From: Bacteroidota bacterium
GTDB lineage: Bacteria; Bacteroidota; Bacteroidia; Flavobacteriales_C; GCA-002722245
Direction of reading: 5' to 3'
Length of the DNA stretch: 34,352 nt
Assembly (NCBI GenBank): GCA_026390935.1
Contig: JAPLEZ010000013.1
Location: forward strand, 24,255-58,606
A model generated the notes under the pieces. That model saw only the letters and a program-made list of their open reading frames with translations, was not told where the DNA came from and searched no databases. Positions 5,010 through 15,893 of this stretch are shown piece after piece (positions within the stretch are counted from its first letter, which is position 1; every line of letters begins with the position of its first letter). The position numbers and the translations under genes were made by a program.

Positions 5010-5030
5010 GTTGTGTTGATGTCCTCACCG

Positions 5031-5100
5031 CTGCGCGAAGTTTAGCGATAGCGTAACTTTGCGAAACTACGCGTTTACGTGGAAGTTTTCAACTTCCTTT
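5031..5100. repeat. Repeat family A, copy 1
   Basis: About 70 bp, shared with 6617-6686, 12377-12446 and 15823-15893 and in part with 15201-15250. On the plus strand it reads GAAGTTTAGCGATAGCG, then TTTGCGAAACTACG, then TTTACG and ends in the hairpin GGAAGTT-TTC-AACTTCC plus a T run. Nested complementarities (GTTT/AAAC and CGTAA/TTACG in the better copies) suggest a long imperfect hairpin. The last base overlaps the stop codon of the ORF6N gene. Confidence 0.8.
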
Positions 5101-5621
5101 TATCCATTGCTGCTTTTGTACCCAATTCTTTTTCTTGTTTTTTGTTCAACATCCTGTTTGTCTTTTTGAATTAAATAATTGATGGCTTCATAAACATCTT
5201 TAAATTGTTTGTTGTATTGCTTTTCCAATTCACCTAATTTATGGGCTAAATCTTTATAATTAATTGCATATTGGCGAATGTGCACAAAGGTGCGCATGAT
5301 ACTAATATTTACGTTAATCGCTTTATCTGAATTTAAAATCCCGCTTAGCATAGCAACACCTTGTTCGGTGAAAGCAAAAGGCAGGTATTTAGGTTGTTTT
5401 CCTCTCCCCATTTTTAAGGTCACAATTTGTGACCTTAAAACATTCCATTCCTTCTGAGTGAGCTCAAACATAAAGTCTTTCGGGAATCTTTTAATATTCC
5501 TTTTTACTGCTTGTTTTAATGCTTTAGTTTCTGTTTCATAAAGTTCTGCCAAATCAAAATCAAGCATAATTTTGAATCCACGAACTTCATAGATTTTGTG
5601 CTGAATTACTTGTGATTCCAT
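5100..5621 (-). CDS. ORF6N domain-containing protein
   Basis: 173 residues. The N-terminal two thirds match the ORF6N (KilA-N-related) domain: IYEVRGFKIMLDFDLAELY (residues 11-29), then KRFPKDFMFELT (about 44-55) and YLPFAFTEQGVAMLSGIL (about 78-95). The domain occurs in phage and accessory-genome proteins and is thought to bind DNA. The C-terminal third is a predicted coiled coil (LAHKLGELEKQYNKQF onward) with a basic tail. Such genes are frequent as isolated accessory genes in Bacteroidota. The stop codon abuts repeat A copy 1, and a repeat-rich non-coding stretch of over 500 bp precedes the start. Confidence 0.88.
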   Translation of the reverse strand: MESQVIQHKIYEVRGFKIMLDFDLAELYETETKALKQAVKRNIKRFPKDFMFELTQKEWNVLRSQIVTLKMGRGKQPKYLPFAFTEQGVAMLSGILNSDKAINVNISIMRTFVHIRQYAINYKDLAHKLGELEKQYNKQFKDVYEAINYLIQKDKQDVEQKTRKRIGYKSSNG

Positions 5622-5913: not shown

Positions 5914-5957
5914 ACATATCATTACTGTTTGGAACATAATGAACATCACATCCATAA

Positions 5958-6119
5958 CGTCCTTGCGAAAATTTTGTACTCAAAATTGAAGCAATCTCAT
6001 CGTTGTTTAAGAATTGAAATCATCCGTTTTTTCTCATTTCGATAGTTTTCTTATAAAAAATAATAGCTTATCGTGAATGAGATTGCTTCAATTTTGAGTA
6101 CAAAATTTTCGCAAGGACG
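5958..6119. repeat. Perfect 43-bp inverted repeat with 76-bp spacer (MITE-like)
   Basis: Arms 5958-6000 and 6077-6119 are exact reverse complements over 43 bp. Each arm has the ends CGTCCTTGCGA and GAAGCAATCTCAT, which resemble the widespread CGTCATTGCGA...GAAGCAATCTC interspersed repeat, around an A/T-rich centre (AAAATTTTGTACTCAAAATT). Further out, 5919-5936 pairs with 6142-6159 with three mismatches, so the whole structure spans about 240 bp. No target-site duplication was found. The spacer encodes nothing recognisable. Confidence 0.9.
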
Positions 6120-6157
6120 CACTATATATCGGATACGTAAGGTTTCGAACAGTAATG

Positions 6158-6180
6158 ATTACATATCCGAAACTACTGGG
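6158..6180. repeat. Repeat family B, copy 2 (CATATCCGAAACTACTGGG)
   Basis: A 23-bp word beginning ATTACATATCCGAAAC and ending ACTACTGGG is identical to 19988-20010. Here it overlaps the last codons of the four-helix membrane protein gene, so the C-terminus of that protein (SPVVSDM) is repeat-encoded. Confidence 0.85.
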
Positions 6181-6596: not shown

Positions 6597-6614
6597 GAAG
6601 CTAAAATTCAATCC

Positions 6615-6861
6615 GGCTCGTAAAGTTTAGCGATAGCGAACTTTGCGAAACTACAGCTTTACGTGGAAGTTTTCAACTTCCTTTTTCTGCAAATTTGATA
6701 TTAAGAGGAGAAGCGCAGCTTCGGTCTTCAATATGTTTCTCTTCGAGAAAAGAAGCACAAAGCTTCTAAGTGGATGCGCAAAATCTCCAAGTAATAGGAC
6801 CAAAGCCATTACCTATGGCTTTTCCTCTTAATATCAAATGCTAAACTTGGAGAGGCGGGGT
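6615..6861. mobile_element. Composite repeat A2+C1 with GCCTC...AAGTTTAGC ends
   Basis: Repeat A copy 2 (6617-6686) is joined to repeat C copy 1 (6694-6855). C is bounded by 16-bp perfect inverted repeats TTTGATATTAAGAGGA (6694-6709) and TCCTCTTAATATCAAA (6823-6838). Inside are hairpins GAAGC-GCA-GCTTC, TTTCTC-TTC-GAGAAA and AAAGCCAT-TACCT-ATGGCTTT (6802-6822). TCTCCAAGT (6784-6792) pairs with ACTTGGAGA (6845-6853), outside the R arm, so the stems interleave. The unit's outer ends read GGCTCGTAAAGTTTAGC and, inverted, GCCTCTCCAAGTTTAGC. It fills the gap between two genes. A second copy is at 12376-12655. Confidence 0.75.
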
Positions 6862-8483: not shown

Positions 8484-8849
8484 TTATTTTCCGTTGATCG
8501 CGCTATTTAAATGCCAGTCGAATTGACAATGTCTGCATTGCTTTGCCTGCGGGGTTCTGGCTAACTTATTACATCGGGGGCAAAGATTAAGAAATACTTT
8601 TTGTGCATGCTCTAATAATACTCTACAGGCAACATTTAATTCAAAATTTCCATAGCCATCTTTTAAAAGTTCAAGAACAGACTGGTCAGTACTTAACCAT
8701 TCTTTTTTATAATACATTTTGATCAAAGCTTCATTGGTGAGGTTTTTAGTTTTAATAAGCGAACTATGATGCCTAAGTGCTTTCTTCTCCACATCTGTTA
8801 ACAGATGGGAGAAATAATTGATGATATAGCTGGCGGTTTCTGCGTCCAT
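8484..8849 (-). CDS. Hypothetical protein with C-terminal zinc ribbon
   Basis: 121 residues. The N-terminal 85 are helical (TASYIINYFSHLLTDVEKKA, then KTKNLTNEALIKMYY). The C-terminus holds a two-knuckle zinc ribbon: C90-P-R-C93 and C105-R-H-C108. Zinc ribbons of this sort mediate nucleic-acid or protein contacts; no enzymatic motif is present. It is first in a two-gene unit with the gene ending at 8098. Confidence 0.65.
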   Translation of the reverse strand: MDAETASYIINYFSHLLTDVEKKALRHHSSLIKTKNLTNEALIKMYYKKEWLSTDQSVLELLKDGYGNFELNVACRVLLEHAQKVFLNLCPRCNKLARTPQAKQCRHCQFDWHLNSAINGK

Positions 8850-8872: not shown

Positions 8873-9456
8873 CTAATCGAAATAAGTAACATATAAATGC
8901 ACCATATTAGTTTGCCTATTGATCCACAAATAGTATTCACTATGGCTATGATGTAAAAAGTTTTCTTTAAAATATATCTTCTCAATTTTGCTGTCAGGAC
9001 AAGTGAACCAATCAGGGGTATTCGTGTGTTTTTTCGCCGATTCAACTTTTTCATAAAATATCCTCGAAGGCCTTAAAGCTGTGTCTAAAGGCTGGTCATG
9101 GGCCAAAATTCTTTGAAAAGAAATTGAATCATATGTAAAACACATGTAGTGCAAATGAGAGTCAAAAACCGCCTGACTTTTATACATGATTTCTGTTGTT
9201 GTCTCAGGAGGATTAAAATCAAAATTACTATTGAAGGCCTGCACAGAACGTTCGCGGCTGGTACTCTCCAATGTGGATAAATCAATCTTCCATATTAGAA
9301 TGGAAATGATAATTGAAAGCGCTGAAAGTGAAATAAATAGAGATGTGCTTCCCTTTTTTTTCTTTTTACAATGGCAAGGATGATAAAAACTAAAGCCGCA
9401 ATAGATAAGCATGCAATAGCTGCTAGTTGAAATAAAATAGAAAATATTTGAGACAT
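8873..9456 (-). CDS. Two-helix membrane protein interrupted by a -1 frameshift at an A8 tract
   Basis: The best N-terminus starts at the ATG at 9454-9456 and encodes MSQIFSILFQLAAIACLSIA, then ALVFIILAIVKRKK, a clear membrane helix with a basic stop-transfer. That frame runs out soon after. The frame that continues to 8873 enters at the A8 tract (plus-strand T8 at 9354-9361) and gives KKKGSTSLFISLSALSIIIS, then ILIWKI, a second helix, and then about 145 soluble residues ending VHLYVTYFD. A -1 shift on A-AAA-AAA joins the two frames into a protein of about 195 residues with two helices linked by a basic loop. The continuing frame alone would start at 9490 with an implausible N-terminus. It could be programmed slippage, a phase-variable tract, a mutation or a sequencing error. 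Confidence 0.6.
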
Positions 9457-9519
9457 TGCTGAAAGTTTTAAGTTGTTTGTTTGCTATCATCGCCCGGAAA
9501 GCTACGCTAAGCCAGGGGG

Positions 9520-10547: not shown

Positions 10548-11603
10548 CTACTCAACAATTTTAAATTTATCAATAATAAAATTTTTGGTGCTTTGATCAT
10601 TTCTGCATTTATTGAGGATGTTTTCGCAAACCATATTTTCCACGGCTTTCTGCATTTTAGGCATAGCAAGTTTGGTTTTAGTACTTCCGCTGAAATCAAA
10701 ATCATTTCCTTTAACAGAAGCCATTGCTATGAGTAAAAATGAAATCATTTTCTTAGAGGTTTTCTGATGAATGTTATTTTCTTTTAGAATACTATCTACT
10801 GCCTTTTGTATTCCATTAATAATTCCGTTTTGCAGTGCTCCCCCTTCAGTAAGTTCGTCGTTGTTGGCAAAAGTTCTAATGTTGGATTTGTCAAGCCAAA
10901 CAGTGGAGTAGGCAATGCCTATTTGGTAGGAATATCCTTTTATGTCGTTGGAAATATCAAAAACAAATTCAGCGCTGCCGTACTTCAATTGTGAAATATA
11001 GTAGTCGCGTAATTCAAACATGCCATTAGCGAAGTGGAGAGTATTGATTTGAATGTTATTTGCTCTGTTTTCTTTGTAAATCAATTTGTAATTAGGGTTT
11101 ATGTATGCGAGTTGTTCGAGTTTAGCCAGCATTAATCGGTACAGCGTCTTTTCTTCAAGTTGAAACACATTGTTGTCCCAGGTATAATTAATAACTATGT
11201 CGCTCTTTAAATCAACTGCAACAGATGTTTTGTGTTGTATGTTGTCTTCGGAAGGGAAAAAGGAATGGAGTTGATTGTCTTGATTGAATTTAATCTCGAA
11301 AATTTTACCTAAATGTAGAAAGATTAATAGTCCAATAGCCTCCATTTCAAAAGTGTTGTTCACTATTTTCTCAAGTGTAGTAAAGAATACTTCTTTATTG
11401 ATGTTTTGAAAGTGAAATTCTATTTTTTGATTCTCCTGAATCGTAAACTCAATCTCAAGAGTTTTATTTGTCAAGACGGGCATTTCTTCAAACACACCAA
11501 TCAACAGTTTTAATATTCCCTGCCAGGTTAAATTTCCAATAAACATTGCGGGTCTTTTCCGTACAGCTTCTTTAAAAGATGCTACTTGAATTTCTCTAGT
11601 CAA
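10548..11603 (-). CDS. Stand-alone degenerate GyrB-like ATPase/transducer protein
   Basis: 351 residues starting at a TTG; in-frame stops lie about ten codons upstream. It follows the GyrB/ParE N-terminal half end to end: EAVRKRPAMFIG (12-23; GyrB EAVRKRPGMYIG), LEQLAYINPNYKL (162-174; GyrB LRELAFLNPG), IRTFANNDELTEGGAL (242-257; GyrB SFVNNINTREGGT) and FSGSTKTKL (304-312; GyrB FEGQTKTKL). It stops where the transducer ends, with no TOPRIM or tail. The GHKL N box, which should follow near 30-45 with E...N..D, reads ILKLLIGVFEEM, so the catalytic Glu/Asn are missing, and the QTK loop has become STK. ATP hydrolysis is therefore unlikely; a decoy or regulatory role is possible. Confidence 0.75.
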   Translation of the reverse strand: MTREIQVASFKEAVRKRPAMFIGNLTWQGILKLLIGVFEEMPVLTNKTLEIEFTIQENQKIEFHFQNINKEVFFTTLEKIVNNTFEMEAIGLLIFLHLGKIFEIKFNQDNQLHSFFPSEDNIQHKTSVAVDLKSDIVINYTWDNNVFQLEEKTLYRLMLAKLEQLAYINPNYKLIYKENRANNIQINTLHFANGMFELRDYYISQLKYGSAEFVFDISNDIKGYSYQIGIAYSTVWLDKSNIRTFANNDELTEGGALQNGIINGIQKAVDSILKENNIHQKTSKKMISFLLIAMASVKGNDFDFSGSTKTKLAMPKMQKAVENMVCENILNKCRNDQSTKNFIIDKFKIVE

Positions 11604-12369: not shown

Positions 12370-12375
12370 TTGTTG

Positions 12376-12655
12376 CCTCGTAAAGTTTAGCGATAGCGAA
12401 CTTTGCGAAACTACGGCTTTACGTGGAAGTTTTCAACTTCCTTTTTCTGCAAATTTGATATTAAGAGGAGAAGCGTAGCTTCGGTCTTCAATATGTTTCT
12501 CTTCGAGATTTGATATTAAGAGGAGAAACGCAGTTTCGATCTTCAAGTTGAAAGCTTCTATGAGTGCATTCGCAAAATCTCCAAGTAATAAGACCAAAGC
12601 CATTACCTATGGCTTTCCCTCTTAATATCAAATGCTAAACTTGGAGAGGTGTGGG
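12376..12655. mobile_element. Composite repeat A3+C2, with internal duplication
   Basis: Second copy of the 6615-6861 unit. A3 is 12377-12446. C2 has the left arm TTTGATATTAAGAGGA twice (12454-12469 and 12509-12524), because a segment of about 55 bp is duplicated, and one right arm (12618-12632). The AAAGCCAT/ATGGCTTT hairpin and the TCTCCAAGT/ACTTGGAGA pairing (right strand 12639-12647) are kept. Ends are GCCTCGTAAAGTTTAGC (left) and CCACACCTCTCCAAGTTTAGC inverted (right). The right end is 4 bp from the stop of the DUF6966-like gene. Confidence 0.75.
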
Positions 12656-14438: not shown

Positions 14439-15179
14439 TCATTTTATTATTTGAATGTTGAGCCAATCATAAAATGGATAGTCTTCTTTTTTGTGCATTA
14501 CAGCATCATTTATTTGCTCATTTTTTATTAACCTGATGAAGGAAACCACATCGCTTCGCTTGTTGTATTTTTCTTTGTTTTTGGGGTGGATTAAAATTTT
14601 TGTGCTTTTGATTTCCCCAACGATCAATTCATTCTCTAATTCAACCATTAGCCAGTCATTTTCTTTTTCTAATTCAACTCTTTTAATAATGCTACCAGTG
14701 ATGGGGAATGAGTTTTTGTATTTGCTTTCTTTTTTAATCTTTGTAAGTTTTATTTTCTTTCCTACTAGAATAGAAGCGGCTACAACTCTATACAAACCAA
14801 AATATAAGAGTGGAACAAAATTAAAATAGATAAATAAATTTGTTCCTCCTTTTAAACCTAGTGTGAATCCAAAGGTGAGTTGAAGGAGTTGTGTGGCATC
14901 AAATATCGGAGTAGAATTTATTGCTTGAATTCCATTTTCAATCAAGATTATACTTTCTGTATGGATGACAGGTATTTGACTAAATATCCATACTTGAAAG
15001 AAGAGAGCTGGATTCCCTTTTTTGTACAAAAAAAGTACAACTCCTGTCAATCCTATTAAGGCAACTAAAATCTGAATAATATTGAGGTAATAAATACTAC
15101 TAAAAAGATTGATAAGACTCAATAAAGTAATAATCCCGGGTAAAATATATTCTTTAGGTTGTTTGTCTAATGAGATCAT
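14439..15179 (-). CDS. Membrane protein with cytoplasmic C-terminal domain
   Basis: 246 residues. Four or five hydrophobic helices lie in the first 140 (GIITLLSLINLFSSIYYL, IIQILVALIGLTGVVLFLY, ALFFQVWIFSQIPVI, LFIYFNFVPLLYFGLYRVV). A soluble C-terminal part of about 90 residues follows, with a beta-rich core (GSIIKRVELEKENDWLMVEL, then ENELIVGEIKSTKILIHP). No family is recognised. Repeat A copy 4 separates it from the next gene downstream of the repeat (15249-15809), which lies upstream in transcription order. Confidence 0.6.
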   Translation of the reverse strand: MISLDKQPKEYILPGIITLLSLINLFSSIYYLNIIQILVALIGLTGVVLFLYKKGNPALFFQVWIFSQIPVIHTESIILIENGIQAINSTPIFDATQLLQLTFGFTLGLKGGTNLFIYFNFVPLLYFGLYRVVAASILVGKKIKLTKIKKESKYKNSFPITGSIIKRVELEKENDWLMVELENELIVGEIKSTKILIHPKNKEKYNKRSDVVSFIRLIKNEQINDAVMHKKEDYPFYDWLNIQIIK

Positions 15180-15200
15180 AAATAGAATTTTGTTTTAAAT

Positions 15201-15250
15201 AGGCCTTTGCGAAAATACGGCTTTACTTGGAAGTTTTCAACTTCCTTTTT
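15201..15250. repeat. Repeat family A, copy 4 (left-truncated)
   Basis: Only the right half of repeat A is present: CCTTTGCGAAAATACGGC, TTTACTTGG and the GGAAGTT-TTC-AACTTCC hairpin with its T run. Its right end touches the stop codon of the 186-residue membrane protein gene. Confidence 0.75.
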
Positions 15251-15809: not shown

Positions 15810-15822
15810 ATTTATTGCTCCG

Positions 15823-15893
15823 CCTCGTAAAGTTTAGCGATAGCGTAACTTTGCGAAAATACGGCTTTACGTGGAAGTTTTCAACTTCCTTTT
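15823..15893. repeat. Repeat family A, copy 5
   Basis: Full-length copy beginning GCCTCGTAAAGTTTAGCGAT and ending with the GGAAGTT-TTC-AACTTCC hairpin and TTTT. The right edge reaches the stop codon of the OmpA-type gene, and the left edge is 13 bp upstream of the start of the next gene. Confidence 0.85.

Follow-up and report, generated by a model that had tools for sequence, protein, structure and literature searches.

Reading frames and genomic setting of the split gene

The window, i.e. the whole 34,352-nt stretch of Bacteroidota DNA that was analyzed, carries on its minus strand two overlapping reading frames that run through a tract of eight adenines (A8; T8 on the plus strand) at 9354–9361 (Table 1). 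The zero frame begins at ATG 9454–9456 with MSQIFSILFQLAAIACLSIAALVFIILAIVKRKKR, and its product, MSQIF...IVKRKKR, is terminated after 53 codons by the stop at 9295. Across the tract its codons are AGA AAA AAA AGG, and a slippery heptamer is present in the correct phase, AG[A AAA AAA] AGG. The −1 frame reads KKKKGSTSLFISLSALSIIISILIWKIDLS (KKKKGSTSLF...YVTYFD*) and ends at the stop at 8873. The first-pass annotation had described these codons together with the A8 tract, as well as a good membrane helix followed by KRKK that is encoded out of frame with the remainder of the protein, and the sequence agrees on all of these points. It had left out that an ATG at 9490 already opens the −1 frame, creating a 205-codon ORF without interruption (8873–9490). 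Given this ORF, translation of the C-terminal part requires no shift.

Table 1. Features of the split gene and its reading frames (window coordinates)
Feature	Coordinates	Strand	Basis or remark
Zero-frame N-terminal segment from ATG 9456	9362–9456	−	Helix 1 at about 9367–9423, then basic KRKK
A8 tract, likely change of coding frame by −1	9354–9361	−	Sequence and codon model
53-codon zero-frame ORF, product expected in the case of no slip	9295–9456	−	ORF list
Membrane helix 2 (−1 frame), where the relatives have their signal peptide	9284–9340	−	Hydropathy and alignment
Ser codon, in the alignment column of the lipobox-like Cys of the relatives	9275–9277	−	Alignment
Conserved domain of extracytoplasmic type, 131 residues, gapless against six relatives	8876–9268	−	Homology search and alignment
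205-codon ORF (ATG 9490) containing the C-terminal part	8873–9490	−	Unshifted alternative; ATG 9412 is in the same frame

The surrounding genes are small, have a limited distribution and are interspersed with repeated intergenic units; the split gene is an accessory gene within this island of poorly conserved genes. The upstream neighbour carries MORN repeats; one relative of this MORN gene was fetched and proved uninformative for the split gene. The downstream neighbour (8484–8849) encodes a small protein in which a zinc-ribbon-like CxxC pattern can be discerned by eye. Its distribution is patchy (10 of 395 genomes of the class, including the window's own), its best relatives are about 50% identical and have different neighbours, and in none of the seven loci read could a relative of the split gene be recognised upstream of it.

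Several other elements were observed in the same region. The repeated units are located at 5028–5101, 6612–6860, 12372–12654, 15176–15249 and 15820–15893, and their core, GGAAGTTGAAAACTTCCACGTAAA, occurs in 21 copies in the genome at up to 3 mismatches (0 for the reversed control). These units suggest a cassette-like array. An inverted repeat at 5918–6159, with 83-nt arms that are 81% complementary and spaced by 76 nt, looks like a small non-autonomous element. The region 10548–11603 encodes a stand-alone GyrB-like protein of 351 residues, far below the length of gyrase B, with TIGR01059 as its best NCBIfam match (E = 4.2e−26, approximately positions 114–371 of 639).

Relatives of the C-terminal domain

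Outside the window's own genome no match was found in 60 relatives or in 10 genomes of the order (both at E ≤ 0.01), in 395 genomes of the class (E ≤ 0.001), or in the genome_contigs, viral_contigs and plasmids collections, and the gene was not found at high identity in a second genome among those searched. The search against phages gave one weak match (33% coverage, E = 0.5), and none when a relative was used as the query. PDB yielded no relative, and Pfam, NCBIfam and PHROGs yielded nothing for the domain of the window. Weak hits in G003, G056, G007 and G030 were discarded as chance, being a different protein, a region with no ORF of 60 residues, or a place overlapping some unrelated gene. 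Among the further loci from that search, L025 corresponds to the window and L028 is the G003 hit again. A PADLOC match to RdrB (E = 0.0041) was likewise taken as chance, as was one relative's match to GIY_YIG_2 (E = 0.073). AlphaFold2 modelled the C-terminal part alone with a mean pLDDT of 50.6.

A phylum-wide sample did contain homologs: matches came from 3 of 395 genomes, one of them the window's own and another with a weak match, while the third contained two copies homologous over the 131-residue domain (E = 6.4e−38 and 4.2e−34). A profile search within the family of the two-copy genome, which is not the family of the window, matched 7 of 397 genomes, five of which contain six distinct full-length copies (L046, L048 and L050–L053), the remaining two having a C-terminal fragment and a weak match. 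The set of six does not include the C-terminal piece of just 34 codons in G1064, which was also left out of the alignment, the weak matches G499, G786, G070 and G275, or L030–L036, which are among the loci from the weak-hit search. Judging from these sequences, the C-terminal domain is no orphan.

All six relatives are single-frame genes without interruption. At the N-terminus of each is a short hydrophobic stretch that closes with Ser-Cys or Gly-Cys and is lipoprotein-like by inspection rather than by a signal-peptide predictor; hydrophobic N-terminal segments with such ends are typical of lipoproteins. Homology with the window starts directly after its helix 2, so that helix 2 occupies the position of the signal peptide, and in the alignment the window has Ser at the Cys present in all six relatives and thus no lipobox-like Cys. 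Helix 1 is absent from all six, and no A run longer than 6 occurs within the first 110 bases of any of them; in four, an A7 occurs outside this stretch. Since none has helix 1, no relative in this set represents an intact version of exactly the two-helix protein of the window. The first-pass annotation had proposed a search for homologs with an intact frame and had regarded close relatives with a single uninterrupted gene and no A tract as contradicting its interpretation. Six uninterrupted genes without A8 do exist, and they count against that interpretation as far as distant relatives lacking helix 1 can. Three of the six relatives are preceded by a small two-helix ORF. In the loci L050, L052 and L056 this shared ORF, 66 residues long in L050, ends just upstream of the lipoprotein start; the one in L050 has a weak match to PLDc_N (E = 0.017).

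The alignment of the domain with the six relatives spans 131 columns with zero gaps at 40–47% identity. The window keeps 41 of the 76 positions that are invariant among the relatives, dN is 0.46–0.49 and dS is either saturated or 4.9. Because of the gapless alignment, the retained positions and this dN combined with high dS, the domain is conserved rather than long decayed and was under selection until recently; an ancient break would have left a different picture. The break is accordingly recent or an assembly error, or it is bypassed by slippage, or there is none and the −1 frame is translated directly. Programmed slippage, phase variation and decay, which had been listed at first pass, remain valid as descriptions of the alternatives, although an intact and conserved domain speaks against decay over a long time.

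Evidence for a frame switch at the tract

A phased Markov model was trained on 143 long ORFs sampled from roughly 336 kb of the same genome as the window. At three model orders, the zero frame before the tract is preferred over the −1 frame by about 7.1–8.6 nats, whereas after the tract the preference is for the −1 frame, and the cumulative frame preference is maximal at 9361, on the first of the eight A's. The maximal Kyte–Doolittle hydropathy over 19 residues is 3.03 in the zero-frame N-terminal part and 2.28 in helix 2. These results are in line with the earlier proposal that the remainder of the protein, with a second helix, continues in the −1 frame from A8. Against background, the whole gene scores approximately zero overall with the codon model, and so does its C-terminal part, yet the frame of the latter lies more than 20 nats above the other two.

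These data bear directly on the possibility that there is no frameshift at all, the 205-codon ORF being translated directly from ATG 9490 or, in a shorter version, from ATG 9412. The lysine run together with helix 2 would then serve as a signal anchor, and the ORF in the zero frame would be spurious. The −1 frame is open throughout, and the relatives have a single N-terminal hydrophobic segment, located where helix 2 is, and no helix 1, both of which are consistent with such a gene. On the other hand, this reading would have to accommodate the low codon score of the −1 frame before the tract, as well as a hydropathy maximum of only 1.28 in the N-terminal part of the 205-codon ORF as against 3.03 in the zero frame, a value attained by 7 of 805 stop-free off-frame segments with matching offset in the same genome. 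Genome-wide, none of the 651 cross-validated control segments whose true frame is −1 equalled the zero-frame score of the window, whereas in a control matched to the same atypical island (13 ORFs), 5 of 207 overlapping wrong-frame segments did. Because of these five segments the evidence for a frame switch is good but not overwhelming. A switch at A8 is likely, short of proof, and direct translation of the −1 frame, though considerably less probable, is its main rival.

A frame-switch HMM left the gene uncalled at every cost tried, from 5 to 9, and for this reason its census of 335,610 bases of the window's genome carries no information on the gene. At cost 9 the census contained 19 switches, of which those that were read near long A or T runs resembled gene ends or starts, some being judged from 30–40 bases. 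A first frame-switch scan, with 669 clusters, was too noisy and was dropped.

The slippery motif and its genomic background

To provide a background for the motif, ORFs of 200 codons or more from the window's genome (172 ORFs, 80,068 codons) were compared with shuffles. In-frame A_AAA_AAA occurred 85 times versus 82.1 and 84.7 in the shuffles, and exact A8 occurred 39 times versus 37.3 and 39.6. Sense-strand runs of at least nine A's, by contrast, were strongly depleted in long ORFs (4 versus about 19 expected in the 335,610 bases sampled). A8 is therefore tolerated in this genome and runs of nine or more A's are avoided; because of this depletion, longer tracts appear to be costly or unstable. 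A5–A7 runs were above the synonymous-shuffle expectation in the same long ORFs.

Pseudoknot-free RNA folding of four stretches gave z-scores of −1.47 and −1.54 downstream of the tract, −2.00 for the stretch starting at the tract and +0.50 upstream. No convincing stimulatory hairpin was detected by folding 3′ of the tract and no Shine–Dalgarno (SD)-like motif was visible by eye 5′ of it, both of which had been suggested as checks at first pass. Rfam gave no match, and promoter and terminator scans gave near-background results.

Some two-helix protein, enough for selection on the domain, might still be produced by leaky rescue or phase variation, i.e. by transcriptional or ribosomal slippage, or by reversible mutation of the tract. 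The domain is intact though the frame is broken, and A_AAA_AAA is in the correct phase, which is weak evidence since, by our own arithmetic, any A8 holds the heptamer in two of the three phases. Eight A's lie at the edge of the reported range. In PMC1088944, a large share of the surveyed genomes shows evident selection at a length of nine A's, and the paper also describes IS elements in which eight A's seem to slip productively. Citrobacter tssM is rescued at A11 with 20–25% frameshifting (PMC4256274). Against productive slippage, A8 is not avoided in the window's genome. This tolerance cannot exclude it, however, because avoidance and frameshifting efficiency were uncorrelated in E. coli (PMC4066793). 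Altogether, leaky rescue appears rather unlikely.

Evolved programmed −1 ribosomal frameshifting, with two products in a set ratio, fares much worse. Programmed −1 frameshifting of the dnaX type relies on A_AAA_AAG plus stimulators. The window has an A-rich heptamer in the right phase, a predicted product that would continue in the −1 frame and, in the stretch folded from the tract, a z-score of −2.0. In contrast to dnaX, the three other stretches do not stand out, there is no convincing hairpin or visible SD-like motif, the heptamer occurs at chance frequency in the genome and the site is conserved in none of the six full-length relatives, which are single-frame and lack A8. The dnaX-like emphasis of the first-pass annotation is thus not borne out, and we consider a programmed site highly improbable. 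The motif of dnaX-type frameshifting is discussed in PMC4066793.

Interpretation of the probable frame break

We favour, with a probability of roughly 0.55, an ordinary change in homopolymer length at A8, by recent mutation or assembly error, in an accessory gene that is possibly leaky via slippage. The gene would encode a small domain, seemingly exported as a lipoprotein in relatives and anchored here by N-terminal membrane helices, helix 1 presumably being part of the same protein as the domain. Its frame would have been broken at A8 by a tract-length change, which we infer to be recent and which might be mixed in the population if it is a mutation. As assembled, initiation at ATG 9456 would yield mainly a 53-residue membrane peptide; full-length protein, if any, would depend on RNA polymerase or the ribosome slipping, as an uncommon event, or on reversible tract-length change, with no evolved recoding signal. 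The codon preference, which flips exactly at the tract and on which the other Markov orders agree, argues for breakage, as do the conserved domain, the chance frequency of the heptamer and of A8, the depletion of longer A runs, the lack of a strong hairpin and the single-frame relatives. The relatives count against it in that they lack helix 1 and therefore do not show the two pieces joined; the five island segments with equal scores, the near-zero overall score of the gene and its not being called by the HMM also count against it.

It seems very unlikely that A8 is instead a working slip site in a remodelled gene that lost the lipid anchor and gained the second helix, slippage in the loop between the helices setting the ratio of short membrane peptide to anchored full-length protein. 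Two overlapping genes, one for a 53-codon membrane peptide and one for a separately started domain, have a parallel in the small ORF upstream of the lipoprotein in three loci but are scarcely credible. By eye, the −1 frame has no start codon close to the zero-frame stop at 9295 that would still keep helix 2; in BLASTP those small ORFs are not similar to the N-terminal part of the split gene; and the three loci, near-identical there by eye, are not independent.

Relation to known systems

The locus shares with poly(A) transcriptional slippage, as described in PMC1088944 and, for Citrobacter tssM, in PMC4256274, an A tract at the break and an intact downstream domain. It differs in its tract of eight A's, which is shorter than the nine of the genome survey or the eleven of tssM. 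It also resembles the orphan singleton frameshift genes that PMC3711429 ascribes to overlapping genes, sequencing errors and indel mutations, being a single instance with a homopolymer at the break and no conserved frameshift site, but unlike those genes it is not a complete orphan, since its downstream domain has relatives. With the lipoprotein-type family it shares the 131-residue domain, whereas at the N-terminus it has helix 2 in place of the lipoprotein-like signal peptide, Ser where the relatives have Cys, and possibly helix 1 in addition.

The background rate in the same genome and the few relatives from the wider search recast a suggestive dnaX-like site as a probable ordinary homopolymer break within an accessory gene that is conserved. 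If leaky expression were true, the gene would be one more case of rescue by poly(A) slippage. Independently of this, the uncharacterised lipoprotein-type domain may merit annotation.
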